In this document: positions 10,567 to 48,788 of the stretch, piece by piece
Position numbering within the stretch: the stretch's first letter is position 1
Layout of the letters: every line of letters starts with the position of its first letter
NCBI GenBank assembly: GCA_016198755.1
Contig: JACQIB010000001.1
Span: forward strand, 32,001 to 96,000
DNA: 64,000 nt
Reading direction: 5' to 3'
Source: Candidatus Aenigmatarchaeota archaeon
GTDB taxonomy: Archaea > Aenigmatarchaeota > Aenigmatarchaeia > Aenigmatarchaeales > JACQIB01
Program-made: the position numbers and the translations under genes
The notes under the pieces: generated by a model
Seen by the model: only the letters and a program-made list of their open reading frames with translations
What the model was told of the DNA's origin: nothing
Databases searched by the model: none

Positions 10567-10634
10567 ATACAGGTCGATTTTTGTTAACGCTTAAATAGTT
10601 CTTTCCCATATTCAGAGCAAAGGAGGTGAAAAAA

Positions 10635-13631
10635 ATGGGATATGGATGGGGAAAGGATTTGAAAAAGCCCGAGTTTACAAAAGTCTCGGATGTTATTTGG
10701 GAGATTCCAACAAGCTTTAAGAAAGGAATGAACGTTCCAGCAAGAATATACGCAACAAAGCAGATTCTGGATCAGATGGACCTGATGGTTTTTGACCAGA
10801 TAACAAATGTAGCAACGCTTCCAGGAATTTTGAAATATGCTTACTGTATGCCGGATGGACACAGCGGCTACGGATTTCCAATAGGCGGAGTTGCAGCAAT
10901 GGATGCTGTTGAAGGTGTGATATCACCTGGAGGGATCGGATTTGATATCAACTGCCTCCACCCAGACTCAAAAATTTCTCTTTCCAATGGGACTTGGAAA
11001 AAGGTTTCTGATTTAGAGCATGAATGGGAAAATAAAAGAGTAAAGTTTTTTAATATAGAAAACAAAGCAGTTGAAAATGCCACACCCATTATGTTCATGA
11101 AACGTATGGAGGATAATAGTATTTTTGAAATAGTAACAGAAAGCGGAAGAAAAATAAATGTTACGGCAGAACACCCCATTCTAACTCAAAGAGGGTTTAT
11201 CAGAGCCGATAATCTGAAAGAAACAGATAATGTTTACACTCAGCCATTCAGCGGTGTAGAATACGAGAAGCCATCCGACGAGGTCATAGTTTCCTATGTT
11301 GACATAGAAAGAATTTTGGATGTCATAGGAATAACAAACTCTGGAAACGCAAGAGTTCAAATTTTAAATACACTTAAAAGAGTTGGTTTAAATGAAATAC
11401 GGTACAATTCCACGGCCCTGCCAGCTATTTTGAAAATAATGGGATTTGTTTTTGGAGATGGTTGCATATCTATATTGTCAAAAATAAAAAAAGGGATGAC
11501 AGCCTTTTATGGGAAAAAAGAAGATTTAGAAACTATAAAGGAAGACATAAAAAGTTTAGGGTTTAAAGCACAAAATATTTTTTCAAGGCAACGAAAACAT
11601 AAAATAGAAACTTATTATGGAACAAGCGAATTCGATTTTACAGAGCACTCTCTTTTAAAAAAATCCACAGGATTTGCAGCACTTCTCATAGCACTGGGTA
11701 CGCCACATGGAATTAAAACCTCTCAACCTTACAGGATTCCAAAATGGATAATGAAAGCACCTCTATGGCAGAAAAGACTATTTCTCGCAGCATTTTTTGG
11801 AGCAGAGCTTTCCTCTCCAAAAACTATTAATGCATATAATTTTTATATGCATCAGTTAAATATGAACAAACTAGAAATTCTAAAAGAAAATGGCGAAGAA
11901 TTTTTAAATGATATACGTCTACTGCTTTCTGAATTCTGTATAACATCTACATATCCCACTATAGTAGAAGGTAACCAGTATGTAGGCAAAAAAGGAAAAA
12001 CTATAGGTTTAAGAATTTGTATACATTCAAATCCGGACAATTTGGTCAAGCTCTATGAAAATGTGGGATACGAATATAATAAAGAAAAGTCAAATTTGGC
12101 CTGCCTTGCAGCAAATTACACACGCCTAAAGGAATCCATAAAATCACATAGGAGTGACATACGTACTTTGGCTCTTGAAATGTATAAATCAGGCGAAAGA
12201 CCGCGGGATATTAGAGCCGCTTTACTACAAGAAAACATATCAAAAAATTTTATAAACCATTCTATATGGCCTGATAGGAGCAATAATGTAAGGTTGCCTG
12301 CCGCATCAATTACTTTTGCTTTTGATGAATTCAAGAAAAATCTTATAGGAGATGGCATTGTTATCGACAAAATAAAAAAGATCGAACAACACCCCTATAA
12401 AGGATTTGTATATGATATTACAATTAACAATGAAAACCACAATTTTATAGCCAATAATATTATTTCTCACAATTGTGGAATGAGACTTGTTACTACAAAC
12501 CTTACTCTGAAGGATGTACAGCCTAAGCTGAAAGAACTTGTGGATAAGTTGTTCCAGAAGGTTCCAGCGGGAGTTGGTTCAGAAGGTTTTCTAAAGCTTA
12601 CAAAAGATGAGTTCAGGAAAGTTGTTGAGGAAGGGGCAGAGTGGTGCGTGAAAAAAGGATATGGATGGGAGGAAGATTTGCAGAGGACAGAGCTGTATGG
12701 GAGATGTAAGGATGCTGATGCAAAGAAAATCAGCCAGAAATCTGTGGATAGGGGGTATAGCCAGATAGGAACTTTAGGTTCTGGAAATCATTATTTGGAA
12801 ATACAGCATGTAAAACCAGAGAACATTATTGACAAGGCTACAGCAAAGGCATTCGGAATTTTCCCTGATCAGGTTGTAATAATGTTTCACTGCGGTTCCC
12901 GCGGGTTTGGCCATCAGGTTGCAACAGATTATCTTAACACTTTCCTTTCTGTAATGGAAAGCAAATATAAAATAAAGATTTTAGACAGGGAACTTGCATG
13001 TGCTCCGTTTAATTCTCCGGAAGGACAGGATTACTTTACTGCAATGAAATGCGGAATAAATATGAGCTTTGCAAATAGACAGGTTATTCTGCACAGGATT
13101 CGTGAAGTCTTTTCAGATGTTTTCAAACAGCCAGCAGATAAAATGGGTTTACAAATGGTTTATGATGTTGCCCACAACAGAGGTTCTTTGGAAAAGCATT
13201 TAGTGGATGGTAGCTGGAGGGAAGTTATTGTACACAGAAAGGGGGCTACTGCGTGCTTTGGTCCCAACAGAACTGAAGTGCCAAAAATCTGGCAATCCAC
13301 TGGTCAGCCCGTAATTATTGGTGGTTCAATGGAAACAGGTTCATACCTTTTAGTTGGTACAGATAAGGCAGCAGAAACATTTTTTTCAACTGCCCACGGA
13401 GCAGGCAGAACAATGAGCAGGACAAAAGCAAAGGGATTATGGAGAGGGGAACAACTTGTGAAAGATATGCAGAAGAAGGGAATTTACGTGCGCACAGTAT
13501 CTTTCCCAGGATTAGCTGAAGAGGCTGGTGGAGCTTACAAAGATATAGATTCTGTTATAAATGCTGCAGATTTGGCTGGTATTTCAAAGAAAGTTACAAA
13601 ACTTGTTCCAATAGGAAACGTAAAAGGTTAG
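10635..13631 (+). CDS. rtcB: RNA-splicing ligase RtcB with an internal intein
   Basis: A 998-residue precursor; without the 507-residue intein the ligase is 491 aa, the normal RtcB size. RtcB joins 2',3'-cyclic phosphate and 5'-OH RNA ends using GTP and Mn2+, in archaea sealing tRNA (and rRNA) exons after splicing-endonuclease cleavage. Seen: MPDGHSGYGFPIGGVAAMD, GGIGFDIN then C (metal-binding Cys, split by the intein), FHCGSRGFGHQ, and VAHNRGSLEKH containing the guanylylated histidine region. ATG 10635 follows GGAGGTG (10622-10628); GTG 10626 lies within that site. Archease, its cofactor, is encoded 2.5 kb downstream. Confidence 0.96.
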   Translation: MGYGWGKDLKKPEFTKVSDVIWEIPTSFKKGMNVPARIYATKQILDQMDLMVFDQITNVATLPGILKYAYCMPDGHSGYGFPIGGVAAMDAVEGVISPGGIGFDINCLHPDSKISLSNGTWKKVSDLEHEWENKRVKFFNIENKAVENATPIMFMKRMEDNSIFEIVTESGRKINVTAEHPILTQRGFIRADNLKETDNVYTQPFSGVEYEKPSDEVIVSYVDIERILDVIGITNSGNARVQILNTLKRVGLNEIRYNSTALPAILKIMGFVFGDGCISILSKIKKGMTAFYGKKEDLETIKEDIKSLGFKAQNIFSRQRKHKIETYYGTSEFDFTEHSLLKKSTGFAALLIALGTPHGIKTSQPYRIPKWIMKAPLWQKRLFLAAFFGAELSSPKTINAYNFYMHQLNMNKLEILKENGEEFLNDIRLLLSEFCITSTYPTIVEGNQYVGKKGKTIGLRICIHSNPDNLVKLYENVGYEYNKEKSNLACLAANYTRLKESIKSHRSDIRTLALEMYKSGERPRDIRAALLQENISKNFINHSIWPDRSNNVRLPAASITFAFDEFKKNLIGDGIVIDKIKKIEQHPYKGFVYDITINNENHNFIANNIISHNCGMRLVTTNLTLKDVQPKLKELVDKLFQKVPAGVGSEGFLKLTKDEFRKVVEEGAEWCVKKGYGWEEDLQRTELYGRCKDADAKKISQKSVDRGYSQIGTLGSGNHYLEIQHVKPENIIDKATAKAFGIFPDQVVIMFHCGSRGFGHQVATDYLNTFLSVMESKYKIKILDRELACAPFNSPEGQDYFTAMKCGINMSFANRQVILHRIREVFSDVFKQPADKMGLQMVYDVAHNRGSLEKHLVDGSWREVIVHRKGATACFGPNRTEVPKIWQSTGQPVIIGGSMETGSYLLVGTDKAAETFFSTAHGAGRTMSRTKAKGLWRGEQLVKDMQKKGIYVRTVSFPGLAEEAGGAYKDIDSVINAADLAGISKKVTKLVPIGNVKG
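10953..12473 (+). mobile_element. intein in RtcB, with LAGLIDADG (DOD) homing-endonuclease domain
   Basis: A 507-residue in-frame insertion between GFDIN and CGMR. It begins with Cys (CLHPDSKISLSNG, splicing block A), has block B as VTAEHPILTQ, endonuclease-type motifs GFVFGDGCIS and LFLAAFFGAELSS in the centre, and ends with YDITINNENHNFIANN and SHN before the extein Cys (blocks F/G). All residues needed for protein splicing (Cys1, TxxH, HN, Cys+1) are present, so it should be active. The second DOD motif reads FFGAE, so an acidic residue is retained. The insertion point is the active-site metal Cys codon, a known RtcB intein site. Confidence 0.93.
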
Positions 13632-19683: not shown

Positions 19684-20454
19684 ATGGTAACGGCACTTCC
19701 AATGGAAACTCTAACTGTTCAGCCTGCTGTTTCAGGACGTTTAGACATACTCAAGGGATATAACTTAGAAATGGATCCACGCCTTACAATAACAGGCAAA
19801 AATCTTTACAAGTCTAGAGAACTTGTACCAAAAGACTTTAGAATATCCACAGCAGCTGAAGAGCTTGCTTTGCAGCTTGCTGAGGAGGCAGCTGGCAAAG
19901 ACCCAAGACAAGCTACAGTATTCGATGACCTTTTTGCAAGGAATGAAGGCCAAGTGTATGTATTTCAATGGACAGAAACAGGCCTGCGTGTGCCCAAGGG
20001 AACGCAACCAGAGTATTTCCAGACAGATTCGAATGGCAGCAAGTATTATCCAAGAATTGTTCTTATTGGAGATAAGGAAGTGGGAGAGGTTCTTGTTCCA
20101 GAAGGAGACGGAAGAGTTGTTACAAAATGGGATAAGGTGTTTGGACTGCCAGCAGAAACAGAGAGTATAAAGTTCCCTCACACACCTTACACTACACACT
20201 TTAGGTTTAATTCAAATCCACAAAAAGACCCTGTATCAGGACAACAGGATGTTGCCGTCGGTCGCAGGAGCAACTGGCCTCACTTTGAGAACGAGAGGTG
20301 CCTGAACGTGGATTCGGACTACGAACGCTGGGGTGCGGGTTCGGATGGTGGCTTCCGTCTAGTTCGGGGTTCAGTCCAGGTGATTGAGAGGCGCAGAATT
20401 AGCCTCGAGGCAGATGCTGTACAGAAAGCATTAGCTTCTGTAGGGTCAGGATAA
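19684..20454 (+). CDS. hypothetical protein, 256 aa
   Basis: Unrecognised. The N-terminal half is mixed alpha/beta (AAEELALQLAEEAAGKDPRQATVFDDLFARNEGQVYVFQW), the middle is strand-rich, and the C-terminal third is Trp/Arg-rich and ends RWGAGSDGGFRLVRG before a short helix. The GFRLVR ending recalls formylglycine-generating-enzyme-type domains, but too little else matches to claim that. TTTAAAT 30 nt upstream of ATG 19684 suggests a leaderless mRNA. From about 20250 to 20410 the DNA is clearly GC-richer with more CGN arginine codons than its neighbours. It converges on trm1 with a 9-bp overlap. Confidence 0.55.
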   Translation: MVTALPMETLTVQPAVSGRLDILKGYNLEMDPRLTITGKNLYKSRELVPKDFRISTAAEELALQLAEEAAGKDPRQATVFDDLFARNEGQVYVFQWTETGLRVPKGTQPEYFQTDSNGSKYYPRIVLIGDKEVGEVLVPEGDGRVVTKWDKVFGLPAETESIKFPHTPYTTHFRFNSNPQKDPVSGQQDVAVGRRSNWPHFENERCLNVDSDYERWGAGSDGGFRLVRGSVQVIERRRISLEADAVQKALASVGSG

Positions 20455-22719: not shown

Positions 22720-24132
22720 ATGCCCAGCAAACCAGTTGGAATAGAAGCAATGTATGTTTACACTCCTCAATTTTGTGTAACTTCTGAAACATTAGCAAAC
22801 GCAAGGGGCGCAAAATTAACACATTTTACAGAAGGAATAGGTATAGGTTCCTTTTCATTCCCCCCACCAAATGAAGATCATGTAAGTATGGCAGCAACAG
22901 CAGCATTAAGGCTGATGAAAGAACAAGATATAGATCCAAGGGATATAGCAAGGATTGATTTGGCAACAGAAAGCAGCAGGGAGGGTTCAAGGGGAGCTCC
23001 TTCTGATGTTGTAGGAGCATTGGAACAGGCTTTTGGTACAAACAGCTTTCGCCACGTAGCTGGTGTAGAATATAAGTTTGCTTGCATTGGTGGCGTAGAA
23101 GCTCTTAGAAATTCATGTGCACTAGCTGCACCAGACTGGCTTCCAGAAGGGAGACATAATATTGTTATAGCAACAGATTTTGCAAGATATCATTTAAGGA
23201 GCGGTGAGGAGCCAACACAGGGAGCTGCAGCAGCAGCATTATTGATAGGCAGGAAACCAAGGCTTTTGGAGATTGTACCCCGTGCTTATGGTTCAGCAAT
23301 GAGATATGAACCCGGAGACTTCAGCAAGCCAGGCGGAAGATCCATAGCGAATGTAAATGGAGGGCTATCTGTAGGTTCCTATTTAAGTGAAATGAGAACA
23401 GCTTGGTCAGGTTTTATAGCTGCTGTTAAAGAAACAGGATTTATAGTACCTTCTTCAGGGATGTGCGTAAGCGACAGTATAGACAAAGGAATTTGGCATA
23501 ATCCTCACCTGAAACAAGTGCAATCTGCTCATGCTTCCCTACTAATGCATGAATGGATCGGCTTGCCTTCAAAGCAGGATATTTTCAGAAACTTAGGCAC
23601 CCCTCCAGAAAGAGGCGAAACTCCGGATCATGTATTTTATGCTAGTCAGCCCTATAAGGATTATAGAAAACGTTTCATGAAAGAGCCAGTGGTTGTAAGG
23701 GATTTCGATAAGAGGATAAAACCCTCTACTGTTGCTCCTTTCGATATAGGCAATTCTTATTCTGCATCAGTTTTTGTTGGTATTGACAGCCTTTTTGAAA
23801 CAGACCCAGAAGACTTGGCAGGCAAAACAGTTGTTTTGGCTGGTTATGGTAGCGGAAGCCATGCTCTGATACAGGCAACCAGAGTTCCAGAAGATTATAT
23901 GCCTGTAGCAAAAAGGCTTGATTTAATGAATAGGCTGAAAAGAAGAGAACACCTCAGCATAGGCGCATATGAAACATGGCATGATTTTCATGATGGCGTA
24001 CAAAGTGGTCTTGTGAAGCCAAGTGATATTAGCTTGCCAAGATCTTTCGCTAGTCCAACGTTCGTTCTCTCTTCAGTTGGTGCCATCAAAAGTCCGACAG
24101 AAGGACAGAGAACCTATGCTTTGGTAGCATAA
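22720..24132 (+). CDS. hydroxymethylglutaryl-CoA synthase
   Basis: 470 residues, nearer the eukaryal length (about 460-520) than the shorter common archaeal form (about 350). Condenses acetyl-CoA with acetoacetyl-CoA. Catalytic residues are visible: E84 in ATESSREGS, C122 in EYKFACIGGVEALR (the ExKFAC thiolase-fold nucleophile), and the base histidine in WHNPHLKQVQ, matching FHSP...LVQ of eukaryal enzymes. A TTTTTAT box lies about 35 nt upstream. It is followed by Nudix, decarboxylase and Nudix genes. Confidence 0.88.
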   Translation: MPSKPVGIEAMYVYTPQFCVTSETLANARGAKLTHFTEGIGIGSFSFPPPNEDHVSMAATAALRLMKEQDIDPRDIARIDLATESSREGSRGAPSDVVGALEQAFGTNSFRHVAGVEYKFACIGGVEALRNSCALAAPDWLPEGRHNIVIATDFARYHLRSGEEPTQGAAAAALLIGRKPRLLEIVPRAYGSAMRYEPGDFSKPGGRSIANVNGGLSVGSYLSEMRTAWSGFIAAVKETGFIVPSSGMCVSDSIDKGIWHNPHLKQVQSAHASLLMHEWIGLPSKQDIFRNLGTPPERGETPDHVFYASQPYKDYRKRFMKEPVVVRDFDKRIKPSTVAPFDIGNSYSASVFVGIDSLFETDPEDLAGKTVVLAGYGSGSHALIQATRVPEDYMPVAKRLDLMNRLKRREHLSIGAYETWHDFHDGVQSGLVKPSDISLPRSFASPTFVLSSVGAIKSPTEGQRTYALVA

Positions 24133-24170: not shown

Positions 24171-24584
24171 ATGTTCAATCCATTCAGGCAGAGGATAATG
24201 GTTACTGCGGTTTTGAAAAATGGAAAAAAATTCCTTTTGCTGCACAGGAAGAAGCTGGGAATACAGGGAGGCAAGTGGCAGTTGCCTGAAGGAGGTCTGC
24301 ATTTTGCTGAAACCCCTGAGCAGGCTTTGATAAGAGAGATGAGAGAAGAAACAGGCCTTTCCCTGCGGGAAGCAAGGCTTTTAGGAGTTCATACTTCCAC
24401 AATGAGTGAGCTTGGAAAACCTCTATACCATGTAATAAGGCTGTTTTACTCCTGCAAAGCCGCAGGAAAAATAAGGCTAAGCAGGGACCACCCAGAGTTT
24501 ATCTGGGTTACGAGAGAGGGTATAAGAAAGCTTAAATTGTTTGAAGGACTAAGGTGGGGGGAAATAAAAAAGTTTTTGCGTTGA
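24171..24584 (+). CDS. Nudix hydrolase 1
   Basis: 137 residues with a complete Nudix box, GLHFAETPEQALIREMREETGL (G-x5-E-x7-R-E-U-x-E-E-x-G-U), about residues 43-64. The substrate is unknown. It lies immediately before diphosphomevalonate decarboxylase (5 nt between stop and the preferred ATG), and a second Nudix gene overlaps that gene's far end, so action on an isoprenoid diphosphate or CoA-derived product is possible. That is inference; nucleotide housekeeping is equally possible. Confidence 0.85.
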   Translation: MFNPFRQRIMVTAVLKNGKKFLLLHRKKLGIQGGKWQLPEGGLHFAETPEQALIREMREETGLSLREARLLGVHTSTMSELGKPLYHVIRLFYSCKAAGKIRLSRDHPEFIWVTREGIRKLKLFEGLRWGEIKKFLR

Positions 24585-24589
24585 TTAAA

Positions 24590-25612
24590 ATGGTGTATAT
24601 TGGAACAGCAGAGGCAAGCCCTAACATGCCTTTTGTAAAATACTGGGGAAAAAGAAATGAAGCTCTAATTTTGCCAATGAACTCAAATATTTCAGCAACC
24701 TTCGACTCCAGTCTGGCAACACGCACAACTGTTTTCTTTTCTGAATCCTTGAAAGCCGATGAACTCTGGATAAACGGAAAGCAGTTTCCTCCTGAAAGTT
24801 TGGATAAAGCAATTCCCCAGCTAAACATAATCAGGGAGTTAGCTGGTATACAGATGTTTGCTAAAATATATTCTATAAGCAAAGTTCCTGTTGCAGCTGG
24901 TCTTTCAAGTTCTTCAGCAGGATTATGTGCTTTGGCTCTGGCGTCTGCTTCAGCGCTCGGGCTTAAACTGCCGGCAGAAGAGCTTTCAATTATCTGCAGG
25001 CGCGGCTCAGGCAGTTCCTGCCGCTCAATCTATGGGGGATTTGTAGAATGGGTAAGAGGGGACAAAACAGATGGTTCAGATTCTTATGGTGTACAGATAG
25101 CAGATGATAAACACTGGCCAGAACTCAGAATGCTTGCAGTTTCCATTGAGGAAACAGAAAAAAAGGTTAAAAGCAGGGCAGGAATGAAACAGACTGTTTT
25201 AACTTCCACACTGTATCAAAAACGATTACAGGATATTGGGAATACACTGGATTCTGTAAGGAATGCTATAAGGAACAAGAACTTCCAATCTTTAGCAGAA
25301 TTAACAATGAAAGAAAGCAATAACATGCACGCAGTTTGTATGGATACATGGCCTCCAATACTTTACCTGAATGACAATTCAAGGACTGTTATACAATCTA
25401 TACATGATTTCAACGAGGGCGGGCTGCGCGCAGCCTATACTTTTGATGCTGGCCCAAACCCCTATATTATAACAGAGGAAAAGAACCTAAAGTCTGTTCT
25501 GGAGCTCTTGAAAAAAATGAGTTTCATAAAACATATTTTTATCTCAAAGATAGGCGGAAACCCAAGAGTTCTGGAAGAACATTTGCTGAACGAAAAAGGG
25601 AAACCCGTATGA
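24590..25612 (+). CDS. mvaD: diphosphomevalonate decarboxylase
   Basis: About 340 residues, GHMP superfamily. Converts mevalonate 5-diphosphate to IPP with ATP. Signatures: ASPNMPFVKYWGKRN (the NxxxxKYWGKR motif specific to this enzyme), the phosphate loop VPVAAGLSSSSAGLCALA, RRGSGSSCRSIYGG, and the catalytic aspartate in AAYTFDAGPNPYI. Most archaea lack this step and use a modified route; here the classical enzyme is present. ATG 24590 (MVYIGTAEA) is preferred over GTG 24554, which would overlap the Nudix gene. It ends with an ATGA overlap into the second Nudix gene. Confidence 0.93.
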   Translation: MVYIGTAEASPNMPFVKYWGKRNEALILPMNSNISATFDSSLATRTTVFFSESLKADELWINGKQFPPESLDKAIPQLNIIRELAGIQMFAKIYSISKVPVAAGLSSSSAGLCALALASASALGLKLPAEELSIICRRGSGSSCRSIYGGFVEWVRGDKTDGSDSYGVQIADDKHWPELRMLAVSIEETEKKVKSRAGMKQTVLTSTLYQKRLQDIGNTLDSVRNAIRNKNFQSLAELTMKESNNMHAVCMDTWPPILYLNDNSRTVIQSIHDFNEGGLRAAYTFDAGPNPYIITEEKNLKSVLELLKKMSFIKHIFISKIGGNPRVLEEHLLNEKGKPV

Positions 25613-26963: not shown

Positions 26964-28025
26964 TTGAGGCTATTGGAAACAGATGCAAAAGAACTCTTAT
27001 CAAAAGCTGGAATTTCTGTCCCAACAGGGAAAAGAGTGAGTACAGCAGCTGAGGCTGAAGCAGTAGCCAGAGAGATAGGAGAAGTTGTATTAAAGGTTCT
27101 GGGGAAGAAGGGAAGGGGAAAGGCAGGAATGATAAAGTTTGCAAACTCTCCTGCAGAAGCATTTGAGGCAGCAAAGGAGCTTTTAGAAAAATCAGATGAG
27201 GGTCTTATAATTGAGAAAAAGCTGGATATTCTGGAGGAGCTCTATGTTGCCTTTGCAGTTGATTTTTCAATAAGCAAGCCTGTTTTGATTGTTAGCAAGA
27301 AGGGAGGTGTGGAAATAGAAAACCAGGCGGATGTTAAAAAAATACCTATAAACATTCTGCGCGGGCTTACAGCAGAGCAGGCAGGCGAGGCTGTTGCCTA
27401 TCTAGGACACGCAGAGCTTTCACCCTTCCTCCAATTACTGTACAAGCAATTTAGGAAAATAGATTCGGAGCTTTTGGAAATAAATCCTTTAGCTATTACA
27501 GCCAATGGAGCTTATGTTGCTGATGCTCTAATTGAAATAAATGATGACAGCCTTTCCCGCCAACCTTTCAGGCAAGAAACGCCAACTGGAGGCATTGAAG
27601 CGGAGATGGCAGGTGCTGGCTGGTCCTACCATGATTTGGGGGGAAGTGTGGGATTAATCTGCTCTGGTGCAGGCTTGTCAATGGCTACACTTGATTTAAT
27701 CCAGATTTTCGGTGGAAAGCCGGCTAATTTTTTGGACATGGCACAAGTGGATGGAGACGGGATATATAGAGGATTGGAAATACTCTCGAAAAAACAAGGA
27801 GTCCGCTCAATTATTATCAGCCTTTTTGCAGGGTTGAACAGGTGCGACAGCATGGCAGAGGGTATTACAAGGTTTGTAAGGGAGAAGGGGCAGAAAGTGC
27901 CAATAATTGTAAGGATGGTTGGGAACAGAGAGGAGGAGGGTTTTGCAATACTGCGTTCTATTGGCTTAGAGCCCTATAAGGAACTGGAAGCAGCCGTAAA
28001 AAAGGCAGTTGAGGTGGCTGTGTAA
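26964..28025 (+). CDS. sucC: succinyl-CoA synthetase (acyl-CoA ligase), beta subunit
   Basis: 353 residues. ATP-grasp N-terminal domain (AKELLSKAGISVPTG; KVLGKKGRGKAGMIKF; SELLEINPLAI with metal-binding acids) and a C-terminal CoA-ligase flavodoxin-like domain (GGKPANFLDMAQ). The reaction is reversible acyl-CoA + NDP + Pi to acid + CoA + NTP. The start is TTG 26964; AAGGGG precedes it and no ATG fits. It overlaps sucD by one base at TAATG. Placement before the HMG-CoA reductase pair is unusual and may reflect a need for CoA-ester balance. Confidence 0.9.
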   Translation: MRLLETDAKELLSKAGISVPTGKRVSTAAEAEAVAREIGEVVLKVLGKKGRGKAGMIKFANSPAEAFEAAKELLEKSDEGLIIEKKLDILEELYVAFAVDFSISKPVLIVSKKGGVEIENQADVKKIPINILRGLTAEQAGEAVAYLGHAELSPFLQLLYKQFRKIDSELLEINPLAITANGAYVADALIEINDDSLSRQPFRQETPTGGIEAEMAGAGWSYHDLGGSVGLICSGAGLSMATLDLIQIFGGKPANFLDMAQVDGDGIYRGLEILSKKQGVRSIIISLFAGLNRCDSMAEGITRFVREKGQKVPIIVRMVGNREEEGFAILRSIGLEPYKELEAAVKKAVEVAV

Positions 28026-28900
28026 TGGCAATTCTTGTAAATAGTGAAACAAAGGTTTGCGTGCAAGGTATAACAGGGAAAGCAGGAACCCTGCACACTG
28101 GCACAATGCTGGAATATGGAACAAAAATAGTTTCAGGTGTTAGGCCAGGAGCTGAAGGGGAGGAGGTTTTGGGAATACCTGTTTTTAACAGGGTCTCCAC
28201 TGCTGTGGAGGAAACCGGAGCAAACAGTTCCATAATTTTTGTGCCTGCAGCAATGGCTAAAGGTGCTGCACTAGAGGCAATAAATGCCGGAATAAAGCTT
28301 ATTGTAATAATACCTGAGCATGTCCCTTTGCATGATGAGCTTGAGATAATGCAGGCAGCTGAGGACTCGGGAATTGTTGTGGTTGGTCCAAACACTCCAG
28401 GGTTAATAGCCCCCTCACTTAAATGTAAAATTGGCTTTGTACCAAACAAATATTATATACCAGGTTCTGTTGGAGTAATGGCACGCTCAGGAACTTTAAC
28501 TTATGAGATTGTCTCCCGCCTTACTTTGGCTGGAATTGGGCAGAGCACTGCAATTGGAGTAGGTGGTGACCCTGTTATTGGGAGCAGGTTCCCTGACCTG
28601 ATTAAAAAATTTGAGGCAGATCCTGAAACAAAGGTTATTTTGCTTATAGGAGAAGTTGGTGGAACCCAAGAAGAGGAGGCTGCAGCTCTTGTTGCTGATG
28701 GAAAAATAAAAAAGCCTGTTGTAGCCTATATTGCAGGCTTCTCAGCTCCCCCAGGGAAAAGGCTTGGGCATGCAGGTGCGATAATTTCAGGCTCACAGGG
28801 GACCATGGAGTCCAAACTTAAATCCTTTCAAAAAGCAGGAATAGCTGTTGCCAAAACCCCTTCAGAAGTTTTGGATCTTGTGAAACAAAAATTGAGATGA
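28025..28900 (+). CDS. sucD: succinyl-CoA synthetase, alpha subunit
   Basis: 291 residues. CoA-binding Rossmann start (VQGITGKAGTLHTGTMLEYG), GPNTPGLI, GVGGDPVIGSRF and the phosphohistidine in GHAGAIISGSQGTMESK near the C-terminus, all canonical. Forms a heterodimer with the beta subunit. Start and stop couple it tightly with sucC upstream (TAATG) and the HMG-CoA reductase-like gene 4 nt downstream, so all four genes from 26964 to 31637 are likely one transcript. Confidence 0.93.
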   Translation: MAILVNSETKVCVQGITGKAGTLHTGTMLEYGTKIVSGVRPGAEGEEVLGIPVFNRVSTAVEETGANSSIIFVPAAMAKGAALEAINAGIKLIVIIPEHVPLHDELEIMQAAEDSGIVVVGPNTPGLIAPSLKCKIGFVPNKYYIPGSVGVMARSGTLTYEIVSRLTLAGIGQSTAIGVGGDPVIGSRFPDLIKKFEADPETKVILLIGEVGGTQEEEAAALVADGKIKKPVVAYIAGFSAPPGKRLGHAGAIISGSQGTMESKLKSFQKAGIAVAKTPSEVLDLVKQKLR

Positions 28901-28904
28901 TAAA

Positions 28905-30371
28905 ATGGTAGCAGGTATTGAAGATAGAAGAATATTGGAAGACGCGAGAAATGATGTTAGTGGTATAGTAACTAGTATTGCATCCCAATTGCAACATGGT
29001 ATGCATCTTTACAAGGCACCAGAGACTGTTAGAACTTTATACGGGCTTCCACAGACAGATGAAGCCAGTGAGAAAAAGTGCAGAGCCTATGCTGCTGCAG
29101 CTATCAGGAGATTTTTTGCAGAAAAGTATGGAGTGGATACGGTAGCTTTGGCAAGCACTGCCATAGTCCCGCCTCTGGTTAAAAAATCTAAAAAACTTGA
29201 AAATGGAACAACCGTAGATTTATGGGAGTCAAAAATGCCAAATTATATGGGAGGAGGAGTTGGAGGAAGACCTGTATCTGTTGTCGGGCCTGCAACATTA
29301 GAAATAGAAGTTTACGATAATATAAATGGAAAAGGAGAACCAATAAAAGAGAATGTCGTTTACATTCCGCTTGCACCAACAAGATTTGGTGTTGCTGAAG
29401 GTGTTAGCGCAGGATTAAAATATATTGCAGATTCTGGAAAACCAATAAAATTGAAAGTTGAAAGTATAAGCAGGGTAACGAGGTCCCCTGTATTTAAGTT
29501 TCCTACAGAAGCAAGTGCGGAAAGTGCTGCAAACAGTATTGGTGCGGGTGTTAGAAGTCATTTGGAAACAGAAGATAACGGAAACCTATTTGGAGAAATA
29601 AAGGGACTGGCAGACAAACTAATGAAAGGACATAACGGTTCTCTCGAAGGTCTGCACGCTGTTACTCTGGGTCCATACTTATGGGCAAATTTTGTCTATG
29701 AAATGAGCGGGGATAATTATGGGCACGAAGCTGTAACAGCCGTTACCAGAGAAGTGGTAAGAGAGGTGCTTCTAAAAAAATTGCCTCATGCAGAATTAAA
29801 AATGCTTGCAGGAGGGTTGGATGGTGACTTAAGACCTGCAACCAATCGATATGGTCGTATGGGAAACATCAGGGGAAGATGGGTTACTGCTTCAGCAGAG
29901 ATTACACCAGAAACCCTTAAAAAGAGGTTTGGAAATATAAGTCCGGAAGGATTAGCAGAGTTAAATAACTTAAAGCAGAAGGGAAACGAGATTCTAGGTA
30001 CGCATACTTTAGCTGGCATGGGGCCAGAGATTGTTGAAGGAGTGTTTTATGCGCTTGAGCCCCCAACCTCCCCATTCCTCTCCTCTACAATTAGTATGGA
30101 AACAAATGTTAAAGGTGATAGTTTAATACTAAATGCTATATTCCATAATATGGAAGTGGGCACAGTGCGGGAGGGTCCACTTTCAGATATAGCAAGCGAA
30201 TGCAGGGCTATTACAGGGAACATAGATGGGGCAGGAAACCCGATAGGCAGGAATGCGGTAAGAATGGCTGCGCGCATTGCTGCAGCAACTTTAGCTGGGG
30301 AGCTAAACCAATATGCACAAATGGCAACAGGAAGATTAGGAATGGAAGCCTATAGGAATGGAAAGCCATAG
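28905..30371 (+). CDS. HMG-CoA reductase-like protein lacking catalytic residues (candidate pseudoenzyme)
   Basis: 488 residues. Compared with the true reductase encoded just downstream, several blocks align: AAAAIRRFF/ATIVRRVY; RSPVFKFPTEA, as in class I reductases; RGRWVTASAEITPETLKKRF/RGVTLTADIVVPPEVLKERF; SLILNAIFHNMEVGT/SLYFSCYLPAIEVGT; and AARIAAATLAGELNQYAQMATGRL at the C-terminus. Yet MATTEG reads APTRFG (Glu lost), SDKKPA reads GDLRPA (Lys lost), no GQD is present and the final KTH reads MEA (His lost). About 70 residues longer than its neighbour. It may be a regulatory or heterodimer partner, or have a new activity. 4 nt from sucD and from the true reductase unit. Confidence 0.75.
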   Translation: MVAGIEDRRILEDARNDVSGIVTSIASQLQHGMHLYKAPETVRTLYGLPQTDEASEKKCRAYAAAAIRRFFAEKYGVDTVALASTAIVPPLVKKSKKLENGTTVDLWESKMPNYMGGGVGGRPVSVVGPATLEIEVYDNINGKGEPIKENVVYIPLAPTRFGVAEGVSAGLKYIADSGKPIKLKVESISRVTRSPVFKFPTEASAESAANSIGAGVRSHLETEDNGNLFGEIKGLADKLMKGHNGSLEGLHAVTLGPYLWANFVYEMSGDNYGHEAVTAVTREVVREVLLKKLPHAELKMLAGGLDGDLRPATNRYGRMGNIRGRWVTASAEITPETLKKRFGNISPEGLAELNNLKQKGNEILGTHTLAGMGPEIVEGVFYALEPPTSPFLSSTISMETNVKGDSLILNAIFHNMEVGTVREGPLSDIASECRAITGNIDGAGNPIGRNAVRMAARIAAATLAGELNQYAQMATGRLGMEAYRNGKP

Positions 30372-30383
30372 AGAGTGAAAAGA

Positions 30384-31637
30384 ATGGAACAAGAGCAGAT
30401 TAATGATTTGGTGGAGAAGCTGGAAAGCGGGGCCGTAAAGCTGCATGAGGTTGAAAACTTTACAGCAAATGATAGCAATGCAGCCACAATTGTACGCAGG
30501 GTTTATCTGGAAAAAAAACTTGGCTTCCCATTAAAGCACATTGGCTCAACTATAGTGGACTTTAATGATTCCATAAGCAGGAATATCGAGAATCCAATAG
30601 GAGCGGTGCAAATCCCGCTGGGGTATGCTGGAGATATGAAAATAAACGGAGACCATGTTTCTGGAACAGTCCCAATTTTAATGGCAACAACAGAAGGCAG
30701 GCTTGTTGCCGGTGTTGCAAGGGGAATAACTGTTGCCAATAGGGCTGGAGGTGTAAATGTTTCTGTTCTAAAAGATGGCATGACAAGGGATGTGCTTGTA
30801 AGGACAGGCGGTGCAAAAGAAAGCGCAACCCTTGCAAAATGGATAATGACAGAGGAAGGGTTTAACTTGCTGAAAGAGGGATTTTCAAAAACCACAAAGC
30901 ACGGTAAGCTGAAAGAAGTCAGGCCATATGTTATTGGAAGGGACACACATTTGAGGTTCAAGGCTGAAACGGGCGCTGCAATGGGCATGAATATGCTTAC
31001 AATAGCTGGGAAAGCCGCTGTGGATTATATTTTGCCTAAACTAAAGGAAAAAGGTATAAATGCTTTTGTTGTTTCAGAATCAGGCAATTTATGCTCAGAT
31101 AAAAAACCGGCTTTCATTAATGTTATTGAAGGGCGCGGAGTAACTCTAACAGCAGACATTGTTGTTCCACCTGAAGTTTTGAAGGAGAGGTTCAGGGTTT
31201 CAGCAGCTGCAATAGCAGATCTCTGCAAATCAAAAAACCTTATAGGATCAGCCCTTGCAGGTTCACATGGCTTTAACGCTCATTTTGCAAATATTTTGGC
31301 TTCCATGTTCATGGCGTTCGGGCAGGATGTTGCTCAGATTGTAGAAGGGTCACAGGGGGTAACTGATGCGGCTGTTCTTGAAGATGGCTCTCTCTATTTC
31401 TCTTGCTATCTGCCTGCGATAGAAGTTGGAACCTATGGAGGAGGAACTAAAAGGGAGACGCAAAAAGAGGCTTTGAAGATAATGGGACTCTATGGGGAGA
31501 ATGATCCTGAAGGTATAACAAGACTGAAACTGGCAGAAATTATTGGAGCAGCCTGCCTTATTGGAGATTTGAATCTGTTAGCAATTCAGGCTGCAGGAGA
31601 ACTTTCTAAAACCCATGGCTCAATCAAGAGGGGGTAA
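30384..31637 (+). CDS. hmgA: HMG-CoA reductase (class I)
   Basis: About 417 residues. Reduces HMG-CoA to mevalonate with two NAD(P)H. All catalytic residues are present: E104 in MATTEG, Lys in CSDKKPA, Asp in FGQDVAQ, His in SKTHGS. DTHLRFKAETGAAMGMNM and the class I signature IEVGTYGGGT are intact. No TM anchor, as usual in archaea. ATG 30384 is preferred over GTG 30375, with GAGAGTG just upstream. Follows the HMGR-like gene by 12 nt, so the two are presumably co-expressed. Confidence 0.96.
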   Translation: MEQEQINDLVEKLESGAVKLHEVENFTANDSNAATIVRRVYLEKKLGFPLKHIGSTIVDFNDSISRNIENPIGAVQIPLGYAGDMKINGDHVSGTVPILMATTEGRLVAGVARGITVANRAGGVNVSVLKDGMTRDVLVRTGGAKESATLAKWIMTEEGFNLLKEGFSKTTKHGKLKEVRPYVIGRDTHLRFKAETGAAMGMNMLTIAGKAAVDYILPKLKEKGINAFVVSESGNLCSDKKPAFINVIEGRGVTLTADIVVPPEVLKERFRVSAAAIADLCKSKNLIGSALAGSHGFNAHFANILASMFMAFGQDVAQIVEGSQGVTDAAVLEDGSLYFSCYLPAIEVGTYGGGTKRETQKEALKIMGLYGENDPEGITRLKLAEIIGAACLIGDLNLLAIQAAGELSKTHGSIKRG

Positions 31638-31761: not shown

Positions 31762-32775
31762 ATGATAACAGCTTCAGCCCCAGGTAAAATACTGCTTTTT
31801 GGGGAGCATGCAGTTGTATATGATAAGCTTGGAATAGCTGCTGCAATAGACAAAAGAATAGGGGTTTCAGCCTACAAAGGAGGCACAGCTGTAGAACTCC
31901 AGCAGCCTTTTCATTTTCCAACACTTAGAAAAACACAGGATGAAATAGAGGAACTACACGCACAGTTCAGGCTTTTGTTTGAACAAAAGCAGTTTGATAA
32001 AATAAAAGAATTAGGTTTCCATAATGCAATATATGTTATGCTCGGGGAAATATTTTCCAAACATGGCTATTCAAACATTATAGCCCGCGCCCATTTATCA
32101 CATACGTTAAAGGGAATAGGCGCATCAGCAAGTTTGTTTTCTGCACTCTCAGCTGCAACATTAAAAGTCCTTGGTGTTGAAGCAACTCTAAAAGAGATAT
32201 CAGACTTTTCCTATATTGGGGATGTTGTAGCCCATGGAGGCACACCGTCCGGTATAGATAACAGCATTGCAACTTTTGGCGGGTTTTTATCCTTTAGGAA
32301 ATCAGAAGGTCCAAAACCCTTAAAACTTGACTTAAACGCAAAGATAATTGTAGTAGATACAGGTGAAAAGTCTTCTACAGCTGAGCTTGTTTCCAATGTG
32401 CGCAATTTGCGCGAAAAGGAACCTGAAAGAGTAAATAAAATAATGGACGAAATAGATTCTATTTCTAATGAGGCTTTGGTAAAAATAAAGAACAGGGATA
32501 TTGTAGCTCTCGGAAACCTAATGGACAGAAATCACACATTGTTAAAATCCTTAGGTTGCGGCCTTTCCACCGAAAGAATAGAAAAAATAGTGTCTATTGC
32601 AAAGGAAAACGGAGCTTATGGCGCAAAACTGTCTGGAGCAGGTGGTGGAGGGATATGCATTGCTTTGACAGACAATCCAAAAAAGATATTAGACTCACTG
32701 AAAAATGCAGGTTTTTACTGTTTTGAAACAAATCTTGGAGCCCATGGGGTTTCAATAGATGAAACAGGTTTTTGA
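31762..32775 (+). CDS. mevalonate kinase
   Basis: 337 residues, GHMP kinase. APGKILLFGEHAVVYD (N-terminal motif), a phosphate loop reading LKGIGASASLFSA (PxGxGLGSSA in most relatives, here with GIGAS), the mevalonate-kinase catalytic aspartate in GGTPSGIDNSIATFGG, and the C-terminal AKLSGAGGGGICIAL. Phosphorylates mevalonate at O5. A TATATAA box (31731-31737) is 28 nt before the ATG, so it is leaderless and independently transcribed from the two following kinases. Confidence 0.88.
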   Translation: MITASAPGKILLFGEHAVVYDKLGIAAAIDKRIGVSAYKGGTAVELQQPFHFPTLRKTQDEIEELHAQFRLLFEQKQFDKIKELGFHNAIYVMLGEIFSKHGYSNIIARAHLSHTLKGIGASASLFSALSAATLKVLGVEATLKEISDFSYIGDVVAHGGTPSGIDNSIATFGGFLSFRKSEGPKPLKLDLNAKIIVVDTGEKSSTAELVSNVRNLREKEPERVNKIMDEIDSISNEALVKIKNRDIVALGNLMDRNHTLLKSLGCGLSTERIEKIVSIAKENGAYGAKLSGAGGGGICIALTDNPKKILDSLKNAGFYCFETNLGAHGVSIDETGF

Positions 32776-32861: not shown

Positions 32862-33821
32862 ATGGTCAAGGTATCAGCCCCAGGAAAGCTCTTGCTCTGC
32901 GGGGATCATGCAGTTGTACATGGAAATCCATGTATTGTAACAGCAGTGGATCACAGAGCTTTTGTTACTGCTAAAAGCACTGGCGGGAACGCTGTTGTTG
33001 TAAAAGCCCCTGATGTTGGCATAACAGAATTCTCATATCCACTACCTTTCAATGGTCTTTCAGTTCCAAAAGGTGCAGCTTTTGTAATACAGGCAGTGAA
33101 AAACTTCTATGGCAAATATGGACTTAGCGATGGACTTGTTATAGAGACAGCTTCTGAGTTTCCATCTTCATTTGGGCTTGGAAGTTCTTCTGCTGTAACA
33201 GTAGCTACCGTAAAAGCACTATCAGATATTTTCTCAATAAAAATGGAACCACGCGAGATTTTTGATCTTTCATATAAAACTGTTTTGGATGTGCAGGGTG
33301 TGGGATCTGGATTTGATGTTGCATCAGCAGCCTATGGAGGAACACTGTTTTATTTTACAGGAGGAAAAATAATCGAACCTCTCACTGTTAAAAAAATTCC
33401 CTTGATTGTAGGCTATACAGGACAGAAAGCTGATACAGCTACAATAGTAAGGAAGGTGGATGAGAAATTAAAAGCCTATCCTGATCATGTTCTTTCAAAT
33501 TTCAATCTTATAGGAAAAATAGTGCTGGATGCAAAAGATACAATAGAGAGAAAAGACTGGAAGAAACTGGGGGATATTTTCAATTTCGACCACGGTCTGC
33601 TTTCAGGTTTAGGAGTTTCCTGCGCAGAGCTTGAAAAGCTTGTATTTGCTGCGCGCAACGCAGGTGCTTACGGTGCAAAACTATCGGGAGCAGGCGGGGG
33701 GGATTGTATGATAGCTGTTTCAGAAGACACAGAGAGCATTGTAACAGCAATAGACAGCGCAGGCGGGAAAGTTATTCCAGTCAGGACAGGCGTTGAAGGA
33801 GTAAGGATAGAGACTGAATAA
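32862..33821 (+). CDS. GHMP kinase, mevalonate/phosphomevalonate kinase family
   Basis: 319 residues. The N-terminus APGKLLLCGDHAVVHGNPCIVTAVDHR looks like mevalonate kinase, and the phosphate loop SSFGLGSSSAVTVA is canonical. But the catalytic-aspartate region reads GVGSGFDVASAAYGG, the form seen in phosphomevalonate kinases rather than GxPSGIDN. It ends with AKLSGAGGGDCMIAV. It may therefore phosphorylate mevalonate, phosphomevalonate or a related intermediate. It has its own TATA box (TTTATAAAT, about 32828). Being one of three kinases for two expected steps, its job is open. Confidence 0.75.
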   Translation: MVKVSAPGKLLLCGDHAVVHGNPCIVTAVDHRAFVTAKSTGGNAVVVKAPDVGITEFSYPLPFNGLSVPKGAAFVIQAVKNFYGKYGLSDGLVIETASEFPSSFGLGSSSAVTVATVKALSDIFSIKMEPREIFDLSYKTVLDVQGVGSGFDVASAAYGGTLFYFTGGKIIEPLTVKKIPLIVGYTGQKADTATIVRKVDEKLKAYPDHVLSNFNLIGKIVLDAKDTIERKDWKKLGDIFNFDHGLLSGLGVSCAELEKLVFAARNAGAYGAKLSGAGGGDCMIAVSEDTESIVTAIDSAGGKVIPVRTGVEGVRIETE

Positions 33822-33971: not shown

Positions 33972-35198
33972 ATGAAAGAAACCGTTGTCTCGGCTCCCGG
34001 AAAATTCTTATTGACAGGAGAATATCTAGTAGCATTAGAGTCAGATAGGCCCGCATATTCTGCTGCCATTAACAGAAGAGTATTTTCTTGGATAGGGGAG
34101 CTGGAAGGGAGATCTGTAACAATAAACATGCCCCAGTTTGGAATTGTAGGGAAAATGGATATAGGCGATGGTGGTAAAACAGAAGTATATCCAACAAGCA
34201 AACGGAGGCAGTTCAGATATATTGAGAATGCGGTGGAATTTACGCTCAGATATTTGAAAGAGGCAGGCGTTTCATTAGAGGGAATGCATATAATTACCTT
34301 AAATGAAAGGGATTTTTTCAGAGATTGGGGAATTTCTAAATCAAGGTTTGGAAGCTCTGCTGCAGCTACTGTGGCTACAGTTGGTGCAATATTTTCCTAT
34401 TATCATAGGGATATTTCAAACCCAGAGGAGAGGGAGCGTATATTTAACCTGTCGCAGATGGCTCACCATCATTCACAGGGCGGGTTTGGCAGCGGGTTTG
34501 ATGTGTCAACGTCTCTCAATGGATCTCAAGTTTACACAAGATTCCCAGAAGATAATATACCACCCAAAGCCACTTTAACTAACAAAGTTATTCTTAATCG
34601 TACTGATTCTAAATGGACATATTCGATGCGTTCGCTCGGGCTTCCCGAAGGCGTAGAAACAGCCATAGCAGTGACCAGAGGTTTAGACAATCCCATTGAA
34701 ATGCTGTCTAGAGTGAGGCATATGAAAAGTTCCAGACAAGACATTTACGGTGATGTAATGAACAAACTCGATGTGGCAAACAGGGATTTTGTGAGTCTTC
34801 TTGAAAGAGGCGTCAGAGGAGAAGAAATAGGGCAGGCTCTAACAAGAACCAGATTGCTTACCAGAGAGCTTGGAGAAAAGTCTGGTGTTGTTATAGAGCC
34901 TCCCCACATCAGGGCAGCATTAGACAATGTTGTTTCCATGGGAGGTGCATGGGGGGCAAAACTCCAAGGAGCTGGTGGAGGATACTCTGCAATTGCACTA
35001 TGTTCAATGGAACATTTTTATCACAGTTGTGGAATAATGTCTACGGCAGGCTTTACTCCTCTCTCTGACATGAGAGTAGATAATTCAACTGAAAAACCTA
35101 TTGGAATGAGATTAGAAGACCCCCAGACATTTCATGATCTGGCAAACAGTCTGGGGTTAGCACTTTTTGAACCCGATCATGGATATCATGAAAATTGA
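33972..35198 (+). CDS. phosphomevalonate kinase
   Basis: 408 residues, longer than the two kinases before it and close to the usual size of ERG8-type enzymes. APGKFLLTGEYLVALE is the phosphomevalonate-kinase form of the first motif; then SRFGSSAAATVATVGAIF, HHHSQGGFGSGFDVSTSLNG (catalytic Asp) and AKLQGAGGGYSAIAL. Forms mevalonate 5-diphosphate for the decarboxylase at 24.6 kb. TTTAAATA (about 33942-33949) lies 26 nt before ATG 33972. The region 33822-33940 between this gene and the previous one contains no clear gene. Confidence 0.88.
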   Translation: MKETVVSAPGKFLLTGEYLVALESDRPAYSAAINRRVFSWIGELEGRSVTINMPQFGIVGKMDIGDGGKTEVYPTSKRRQFRYIENAVEFTLRYLKEAGVSLEGMHIITLNERDFFRDWGISKSRFGSSAAATVATVGAIFSYYHRDISNPEERERIFNLSQMAHHHSQGGFGSGFDVSTSLNGSQVYTRFPEDNIPPKATLTNKVILNRTDSKWTYSMRSLGLPEGVETAIAVTRGLDNPIEMLSRVRHMKSSRQDIYGDVMNKLDVANRDFVSLLERGVRGEEIGQALTRTRLLTRELGEKSGVVIEPPHIRAALDNVVSMGGAWGAKLQGAGGGYSAIALCSMEHFYHSCGIMSTAGFTPLSDMRVDNSTEKPIGMRLEDPQTFHDLANSLGLALFEPDHGYHEN

Positions 35199-35267: not shown

Positions 35268-36323
35268 ATGCCAGAGTCTTCCAGAGACTTTACACCCAGC
35301 AGAAAATCAGAGCACATAAGAATAACAACTCAGGAGAATGTGGAAACTGGGAGCACGGGATTTGAGGACGTTTCTTTATTACATAAAGCTGTTCCGGAGC
35401 TGAATTTTGAGAAAGTTTCAACTGAAACAGAGTTTTTCGGAAAGAAATTCTCTCTCCCTCTAATGATAGCAGGAATGACTGGAGGGGCAGTAGAAACAAA
35501 GGAAATTAATTTAGGTTTGGCAAAGGCAGCTGAAGAGGCTGGGATAGGGATGGGGGTTGGTTCACAGAAAGCAATGATTGAACATGAAGAATTAACAGAA
35601 ACCTATTCTGTGCGTTCTATTGCACCTACAATTTTTCTGTGCGGAAATATCGGTTTACCAAAATTAAAAATATACTCTGTGCAGCAGATTGAAAAAATGC
35701 TGCTCTCTATTAAGGCAGATGCTCTCTGTGTCCATTTAAACCCTGCACAAGAACTGTTTCAAAAAGACTCTGAGATAGAGCCAGACTGGACAGGCTGCTT
35801 CTCTGCCTTAAAAACTATTTGCTCTGAGCTAAACTATCCTGTTATAGCAAAGGAAGTTGGAAATGGTATCTCGAAAGAAACAGCTGTCCAGCTAAAAGAA
35901 GCGGGGGTTAAAGCAATCGATGTTGGCGGAGCTGGTGGAACAAGCTGGGTTGTTATAGATGGTATGAGATCTGGAAAGGATACAACAGATTTTAAAAATT
36001 GGGGAATTCCAACTGCAATCTCAATTCTCGAGGCAAGGAAAGCTGGATTACCAATAATTGCAACAGGCGGGCTTCGCTCTGGGCTGGATATTGCAAAAGC
36101 CCTTGTTCTTGGAGCTGATTTGGCTGGAATAGCCCTGCCTTTCCTAAAAGAGTTCAAACGTGGCGGTGTTCCAGCTGTTGAAGCCTATATAGAAAAGCTG
36201 GAAAGAGAGCTGCGCACAGCAATGTTTCTCTCTGGCTGTAAATCAATCTCCGAGCTGAAAAAACTCAAACCAATTATAACAGGCAAAACAAAAGAATGGG
36301 CAGAACAGCGCGGCTTATTTTAG
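35268..36323 (+). CDS. fni: isopentenyl-diphosphate isomerase type 2 (FMN-dependent)
   Basis: 351 residues, TIM-barrel flavoenzyme interconverting IPP and DMAPP. SRKSEHIRI at the N-terminus (diphosphate-binding RKxxH), LMIAGMTGGAVETKEIN, GVGSQKAMIEH, LCVHLNPAQE with the catalytic Gln, KEVGNGISKETA, DVGGAGGTSW and ATGGLRSGLDIAKAL (FMN phosphate) are all family hallmarks. Leaderless from CTTAAATAG 28 nt upstream. Completes the path from HMG-CoA to DMAPP in this window. Confidence 0.95.
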   Translation: MPESSRDFTPSRKSEHIRITTQENVETGSTGFEDVSLLHKAVPELNFEKVSTETEFFGKKFSLPLMIAGMTGGAVETKEINLGLAKAAEEAGIGMGVGSQKAMIEHEELTETYSVRSIAPTIFLCGNIGLPKLKIYSVQQIEKMLLSIKADALCVHLNPAQELFQKDSEIEPDWTGCFSALKTICSELNYPVIAKEVGNGISKETAVQLKEAGVKAIDVGGAGGTSWVVIDGMRSGKDTTDFKNWGIPTAISILEARKAGLPIIATGGLRSGLDIAKALVLGADLAGIALPFLKEFKRGGVPAVEAYIEKLERELRTAMFLSGCKSISELKKLKPIITGKTKEWAEQRGLF

Positions 36324-47820: not shown

Positions 47821-48177
47821 ATGAGTATAATAGATGCAATAAGGAAAAAAGTAGGTCAGCCTTTGCCTGAACAAACAGAAGAATCAGAAGATAAATCCCT
47901 TCCAGATGATTTAGAACCCTTTAAGCTCCCTCCACCACCAGCTCCAAAACCAGCCGAACCTCTATCAATTCCCGAAGCTCTACCCCCCACTCTCCCGCCT
48001 CCAATCCGCCGCTCTGGAGCAGGAAAAAGCTATATTCCGCCAGAGTACGAATCTCTGGTTTCCGGCCCTTCTAATCAAGAGCCTGCACTAGCAGGAGATA
48101 AAGTAGAATTAATTCTCCAAAAATTGGAAACAATTGACGCACGCTTAAGGTTTATAGAAGAAAGGCTGCGGCGCTAA
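47821..48177 (+). CDS. proline-rich protein with C-terminal coiled coil, 118 aa
   Basis: N-terminal MSIIDAIRKKVGQP, an acidic then Pro-rich linker (FKLPPPPAPKPAEP; ALPPTLPPPIRR), and a C-terminal helix VELILQKLETIDARLRFIEERLRR with heptad spacing. Likely an adaptor that oligomerises and tethers the A/B proteins. ATG 47821 follows AGGTGGAAC; GTG 47812 is the site itself. Converges on the next gene with a 4-bp overlap. Confidence 0.6.
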   Translation: MSIIDAIRKKVGQPLPEQTEESEDKSLPDDLEPFKLPPPPAPKPAEPLSIPEALPPTLPPPIRRSGAGKSYIPPEYESLVSGPSNQEPALAGDKVELILQKLETIDARLRFIEERLRR

Positions 48178-48788
48178 AGAGTAACAGGTTCTAACTGCGG
48201 TGCTGTAACCAACATTTCAGCTTCATGCGCTTGGAAAGCCCCAGGGTTCAATACAACACACATAACTTTGCCACTTACAGTTGCTCGGTCTGCCAATTCA
48301 CCCAAAACCCTTGTTGTAGTGTTCATTCCAATACCAGAATACATAAGCTCAACCACCCCAGGTCCAATAAGCGTATGACGAGGTGATGATGCATTTAGCT
48401 CCTGAACCATATGTGTAGGATTCAGGGCAGAAAGGGCTGCTACTTTTCTCGGCTTAAATGCACTGCCCTTTATAGAATTTCTATCAAATTTTGAATCAAC
48501 AGATCCGCTAATATGGTAGAGATTTGTAATACCTTCAAAAGCTGCTGAATGCTCAGCATGATTATCATCTCTGGGTACAACATTATCCAATAGTTCTATA
48601 GCCACGGAAGGGTTCCTTGTAAGATAAGAAAAATTTAGTTCTTTATGCGGAGTTTGTCTATTATAGAGTAGATTATCTACCCAGCTCAGAAATTTCAACT
48701 GTGCATATCTTGCACCGTCTGGGGTATTGGTCTTTGCAACATACGATCTTGAGGGCTTCAAATCAGGTCCATCAGTAGTGTTAGACAT
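48174..48788 (-). CDS. hypothetical protein, 204 aa
   Basis: Unrecognised. Soluble, polar N-terminus, central SWVDNLLYNRQTPHKELNFSY and VAIELLDNVVP helices, and a C-terminal beta-rich half (GPGVVELMYSGIG, GKVMCVVLNPGAF). ATG 48788 is 28 nt from the TATA box, so it is leaderless, and a perfect 15-bp palindrome fills the space between. It shares this promoter design with the gene at 52486 and a variant at 19102, so a common regulator is likely. Confidence 0.55.
   Translation of the reverse strand: MSNTTDGPDLKPSRSYVAKTNTPDGARYAQLKFLSWVDNLLYNRQTPHKELNFSYLTRNPSVAIELLDNVVPRDDNHAEHSAAFEGITNLYHISGSVDSKFDRNSIKGSAFKPRKVAALSALNPTHMVQELNASSPRHTLIGPGVVELMYSGIGMNTTTRVLGELADRATVSGKVMCVVLNPGAFQAHEAEMLVTAPQLEPVTL

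Follow-up and report, generated by a model that had tools for sequence, protein, structure and literature searches.

The window analysed here is a 64,000-nucleotide stretch from the draft genome of an Aenigmatarchaeota archaeon (890,842 bases, 89.5% complete, 0.56% contamination). Its + strand carries genes for the mevalonate pathway. These encode a divergent HMG-CoA synthase (HMGS) with the Cys in ACIGG (22720-24132); diphosphomevalonate decarboxylase (MDD; 24554-25612, over the TIGR01240 cut-off); an ordinary class-I HMG-CoA reductase (HMGR), a textbook enzyme and statin target, with all of its catalytic residues (30384-31637, alternative GTG start at 30375; 340 bits to PF00368); a divergent phosphomevalonate kinase (PMK)-like GHMP kinase, below the curated cut-off (33972-35198); and type 2 isopentenyl-diphosphate isomerase (35268-36323, over the TIGR02151 cut-off). 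Two adjacent mevalonate kinase (MVK) paralogues (31762-32775 and 32862-33821), each over the TIGR00549 cut-off, both have the PGKxxLxG[ED]HAV and KLSGAGGG motifs.

Within this neighbourhood, on the same strand, lie three further genes. The first encodes a divergent SucC-like beta subunit (26964-28025), in which the GGGATKERV loop reads MAQVDGDGI and FGGIV reads FAGLN. The second encodes a SucD-like alpha subunit of an ADP/GDP-forming acyl-CoA ligase (28025-28900), with the phosphohistidine motif GHAGAI intact, and ends 4 nt before the start codon of the third. This third gene (28905-30371), the subject of the present analysis, encodes a protein of HMGR fold that lacks the four catalytic residues and is the founding sequence of a family of three.

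Homology to class-I HMG-CoA reductase

A sequence-only reading of the window had described the 28905-30371 product as a second, apparently dead HMGR, encoded by an intact frame and alignable over long stretches with the HMGR next to it. The frame is indeed intact, giving 488 aa with no internal stop, and the homology is confirmed. A PF00368 HMM search, which that reading had proposed as a check, returns 44.1 bits (E 1.8e-11) against a curated cut-off of 27, and BLASTP against the neighbouring HMGR gives E 2e-12 with 30% identity over 182 aa. Furthermore, a profile-profile comparison (hhalign) of the three-member family with 14 HMGRs yields a probability of 99.9% and an E value of 2.8e-33 over 387 columns. 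The "long stretches" need one correction: likeness to HMGR is low overall (about 25% identity to the neighbour across 406 aligned residues) and peaks in the C-terminal part, where all of the quoted stretches lie.

The fold comparison, also proposed as a check, agrees. The AlphaFold2 model of the protein (pLDDT 76, pTM 0.77) was built from an alignment of the window protein with 37 HMGRs and thus depends partly on sequence homology; the 50 PDB entries that match it best consist exclusively of HMGRs, with human 1dq8 at the top (E 1.8e-22; TM 0.71 over the target). Loops of low confidence lie at residues 88-111, 215-223, 312-320, and 387-390. By profile and fold, then, the protein belongs to the class-I HMGR superfamily. 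It reaches no NCBIfam equivalog cut-off, including that of the class-I HMGR family TIGR00533, and the orthologue P0002, when searched alone, has no Pfam match. The 28905-30371 protein is a true class-I HMGR homologue by fold and homology; it is not an HMG-CoA reductase as an enzyme class.

Loss of the catalytic residues and a remade pocket

The catalytic set of human HMGR consists of Glu559, Lys691, Asp767, and His866 (PMC7503714). In the 28905-30371 protein, Glu559 corresponds to R160, Lys691 to L309, and Asp767 to P387; His866 has no His counterpart, and the GQD motif, which holds Asp767, is absent. The earlier statement that each catalytic residue is replaced was therefore correct, and all four are replaced in every one of the three family members. 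By comparison, all four are present in each of 15 HMGRs from Aenigmatarchaeota and in 80 HMGRs from GTDB genomes, except L090, in which the contig ends before the His; consequently, the loss is specific to the 28905-30371 protein. Other signatures are altered as well. The NADPH motif DAMGMN becomes DNYGHE, appearing across the three members as GDNYGHE, GDFYGHE, and GNSFGHE; the CoA-binding STNR motif has changed in the window protein, and the ENxIG dimer-interface motif is missing from all three. What the family shares with class-I HMGR is the fold, homology over about 390 columns, and the equivalents of Lys735, Arg590, and Asp690.

Conservation within the family is concentrated in the ligand pocket. 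Among 23 positions that contact ligands in human HMGR (PMC7503714, PMC9500038), 12 are invariant in the three members; of the remaining 289 columns, 59 are (odds ratio 4.3, p 0.0013). The statistic is coarse because it comes from three sequences on long branches. The enrichment persists without Gly and Pro (p 0.0005), and four alignment methods are concordant. In a pocket undergoing decay, conservation would be expected to fall below that of the remaining protein instead of exceeding it.

The contact positions fall into several groups. R590, D690, G656, and K735 are kept as in HMGR in all three members. Lys735 of human HMGR forms a salt bridge to the HMG carboxylate (PMC7503714, PMC9500038); its equivalent, K357 (codon 29973-29975), is invariant in the family with all four aligners. 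D308, the retained Asp690 equivalent, directly precedes L309 at the lost catalytic Lys691 (codons 29826-29831). Six positions are switched to residues that are invariant in the family and unlike those of HMGRs: E559R, S684A, N755E, L853Q, M657H, and N658E. They include R160 in place of catalytic Glu559 (codon 29382-29384), H274-E275 in the invariant GHE motif at the NADPH-contact positions Met657-Asn658 (29724-29729), and E375 at the HMG-contact position Asn755 (30027-30029). S565G and N567S are also invariant in the family, yet they occur in some HMGRs. K691, K692, D767, R568, S626, and R627 are lost without a fixed substitute. Beyond the 23 positions, A564E, C688D, and H752M are fixed too. 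The position of Asp653 holds Asp or Asn.

As read from these alignments, the four residues on which NADPH-dependent reduction of HMG-CoA relies are gone from the subfamily, and another conserved set has become fixed in the ligand-contact positions. By the known mechanism, the protein cannot reduce HMG-CoA.

A three-member family with a SucCD-type partner

Orthologues were found in two of 295 Micrarchaeota genomes sampled, G325 (E 2e-37) and G351 (E 1e-31); the next matches were at 3e-21 or weaker. When a three-member profile was run against 164 genomes of that Micrarchaeota order, G325 and G351 scored 859 and 813 bits, with all others at 58 or below; since the two sequences were themselves part of the profile, only the gap down to 58 bits is informative. 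The members are 32-38% identical to one another and 20-25% identical to HMGRs, and they form a single clade (SH-aLRT 100) in a tree with 61 HMGRs. Open frames of 478-488 codons are maintained in three genomes from two phyla. The family is small and deep-branching within the class-I HMGR superfamily.

Searches elsewhere returned no further members. Scans for close relatives with the 28905-30371 protein alone found none among IMG/VR, GTDB contig, plasmid, or phage sequences, and scanning IMG/VR with an alignment of all three members likewise gave no relatives. A second scan of GTDB contigs gave ordinary HMGRs only, which is not evidence of absence, as its patterns miss the G325 and G351 orthologues. 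In 156 Aenigmatarchaeota genomes, a single-sequence search detected real HMGRs only, besides the protein itself, and no candidate member stood out from the HMGR background in samples of 398 Thermoproteota, 287 Patescibacteria, and 295 Halobacteriota genomes. Extra HMGR copies in other Micrarchaeota (L111-L115) were considered as members and rejected, as their catalytic residues are kept. Three of these divergent copies (L111:7469-8773, L112:8531-9817, and L113:7408-8694) stand head-to-head with an ordinary HMGR and adjoin genes named by eye as 2-oxoacid:ferredoxin oxidoreductase-like, HMGS, and thiolase-like; they have Glu at the position of human residue 564, as does the window family.

The sequence-only reading had suggested a survey for the pairing of the unusual gene with HMGR. 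Such a pair does occur in the window and in G351, where HMGR is the next gene downstream (gaps of 12 and 9 nt) and the two HMGRs are 59% identical. It does not occur in G325, which has no HMGR near the orthologue; its HMGR lies on another contig and belongs to a different clade. The constant partner is instead the SucCD-type pair, which that reading had not mentioned. The order sucC-sucD-HMGR-like gene is found in all three genomes, and the spacing in front of the HMGR-like gene is tight (+4, +4, and -4 nt), as for a third component of a SucCD-type CoA-ligase operon.

This SucCD falls within an eight-genome clade (support 100/99 for SucC and 99/99 for SucD). It shares the domain architecture and phosphohistidine motif of the ADP-forming CoA ligases, such as SucCD, malate-CoA ligase, and citryl-CoA synthetase, and the SucD motif GHAGA is kept throughout. 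In contrast to those enzymes, the acyl-side loops of SucC are switched throughout the clade: the canonical GGGATKERV has given way to a loop containing AQ, and FGG to AGLN. Thus, where GGGxTKExV and FGGI would be canonical, the eight members have a MAQxDGxG-like loop and AGLN, with AQMGTEE in L147. The window SucD passes its NCBIfam cut-off, whereas the SucC does not. Such a change in the SucC loop points to an acyl substrate other than succinate.

A second difference from the SucCD family is that the clade is tied to HMGR rather than to the TCA cycle. In L148 and L149, HMGR immediately follows the pair, whereas in L147 two intervening genes stand between the pair and a downstream HMGR-MVK-MDD run; all three loci lack a protein of the 28905-30371 type. 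These arrangements link the ligase to HMGR and the mevalonate pathway. Among canonical SucCD pairs of other Micrarchaeota (L151-L155), none adjoins HMGR. The loci of this HMGR-associated DPANN clade are L147:5355-7365, L148:5142-7155, and L149:3388-5386, together with the window, L108, L109, L146, and L150. An M20-type peptidase gene and a gene of about 300 residues, possibly GNAT-like by eye, accompany the clade at L147:7369-9385, L149:5564-7641, and L150:1956-3587.

The window's genome also has a second SucCD-type pair, beside citryl-CoA lyase (G000:C3, L134:5666-8478); together, these probably constitute a two-step ATP-dependent citrate cleavage system.

Whether the ligase could stand in for HMGS was also considered. 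HMGS is absent or only weak in G262, G189, G270, G269, and G391, but the contrast among HMGR-bearing Micrarchaeota is not significant (p 0.24 or 0.06), and in draft genomes absence is weak evidence. HMGS is present in G325 and G351 and, in divergent form, in the window's genome; all three carriers of the HMGR-like protein thus have both HMGS and HMGR, and no pathway step is visibly missing. Replacement of HMGS by the SucCD ligase is a lead only.

Possible functions of the HMGR-like protein

Taken together, these results have led to a model in which the 28905-30371 family is a novel variant within the HMGR superfamily, and its protein has probably taken on another function instead of being an inactive copy. 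In this model, the protein would work with the SucCD-type acyl-CoA ligase on a CoA thioester bearing a free carboxylate, which may be HMG-CoA or a close relative. The carboxylate clamp (the Lys735 equivalent), Arg590, and Asp690 would still hold the ligand, while the positions for the CoA phosphate, NADPH, and catalysis have changed. Because the carboxylate-holding residues are kept and the gene is tied to a CoA ligase, the protein is proposed to act on, or sense, a thioester that it shares with SucCD. The chemistry would most likely be non-reductive, for example, thioester hydrolysis, isomerisation, or acyl transfer to or from SucCD, and the protein may act as its own homodimer; this is the least certain part. 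We put the probability at about 0.5 that an HMGR-fold protein has here been neofunctionalised to handle, together with a dedicated SucCD-type ligase, an acyl-CoA that resembles HMG-CoA and bears a carboxyl group, most likely through non-reductive chemistry, with CoA-ester sensing as the alternative. Of the options raised by the sequence-only reading, a relative with new chemistry or a binder of CoA esters fits best. The retained K735 could, however, be structural rather than carboxylate-binding. A narrower version is more tentative: the HMGR fold may have been turned into a non-redox enzyme on HMG-CoA or a similar ester, which a new SucCD-type ligase delivers or consumes, giving a hitherto unknown ATP-coupled branch at the HMG-CoA node of DPANN isoprenoid synthesis.

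The next possibility after an enzyme with non-reductive chemistry is a purely ligand-sensing role. A non-catalytic sensor or scaffold would bind HMG-CoA or the SucCD product and regulate SucCD or HMGR without chemistry of its own, a reading that we consider less likely than not. All known catalytic residues are lost while the carboxylate lysine is kept, and the gene adjoins its putative effectors in an operon. In addition, catalytically dead regulatory paralogues are known: PMC3663545 describes one for trypanosomatid deoxyhypusine synthase, where a single genome likewise encodes both a non-catalytic and an active paralogue. But R160, E165, H274, E275, D306, and E375 are fixed at or beside the catalytic and cofactor positions, which exceeds what a passive site needs, and no regulatory domain has been added; the new charged residues at catalytic positions modestly favour an enzyme over a passive binder. 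The deoxyhypusine synthase case also differs in that the composite site of HMGR forbids the 28905-30371 protein from complementing the neighbouring enzyme. In HMGR, S684, D690, K691, K692, and D767 come from one chain and E559, K735, N755, L853, and H866 from the other (PMC7503714). One mixed site would therefore lack K691 and D767 and the other E559 and H866, and since neither chain alone supplies a complete active site, a mixed dimer could only inhibit HMGR. This weakens the earlier suggestion that the protein is a heterodimer partner of the neighbouring HMGR, modulating it through mixed dimers. The shared fold and the close spacing of the two genes in the window and G351 speak for such a partner, but the association with HMGR fails in one carrier of three, and loss of the ENxIG motif argues against an obligate complex. 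When the two proteins were modelled in tandem by AlphaFold2, with the stop codon read through, the pTM was 0.58, and the first half had no alignment, so that this model speaks neither for nor against a complex. On the other grounds, we consider the heterodimer unlikely.

A reductase with a different substrate and relocated catalytic residues is slightly less likely still. That HMGRs can change substrate is known from FcrA, a fatty acyl-CoA reductase derived from class-I HMGR in which the four catalytic residues are kept and the carboxylate lysine is lost (PMC11948995, which prints Lys795, taken here as Lys735). FcrA resembles the 28905-30371 protein in being an HMGR paralogue that has changed its role and has genomic links to enzymes producing or consuming its thioester, and the retention of G656 and of Asp or Asn at position 653 would suit a reductase. 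Its residue pattern, however, is the reverse of that of the present family, which has none of the four catalytic residues and keeps the lysine, and which therefore does not belong with FcrA. Moreover, the NADPH contacts M655, M657, N658, S626, and R627 are altered, and by length and alignment the protein lacks the N-terminal lipid-carrier domain of FcrA. Finally, the missing catalytic residues and the incomplete draft might suggest a decaying or assembly-generated pseudogene. This is highly improbable and, in effect, refuted by the orthologues, since the frame is open in three genomes of two phyla, with conserved pocket residues and a conserved operon; the sequence-only reading was right to reject it.

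FcrA was the sole relevant paper in the open-access literature searched, where no HMGR homologue without catalytic residues was described. Unlike this one published change of function found, which keeps the catalytic machinery, a conserved lineage with every catalytic residue replaced and a new charged set in the pocket would be proof that the HMGR fold can serve other chemistry or sensing. That several DPANN archaea, including some drafts without HMGS, have a distinct SucCD-type ligase next to HMGR also raises the question of whether HMG-CoA or a similar ester is made or used by a ligase.

Two minor features of the window may be recorded. Several of its proteins are poor in lysine (3.7-5.7% Lys, compared with about 7-12% in most other genes checked); the set includes several orphans as well as the divergent HMGS and PMK (8539-9669, 19684-20454, 22720-24132, 28905-30371, 33972-35198, 48174-48788, 48821-49474, and 51788-52486). 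The gene at 10626-13631 encodes a 1001-aa RtcB-like protein; by eye, an internal segment of it resembles an intein, with Cys at its start and HNC at its end.
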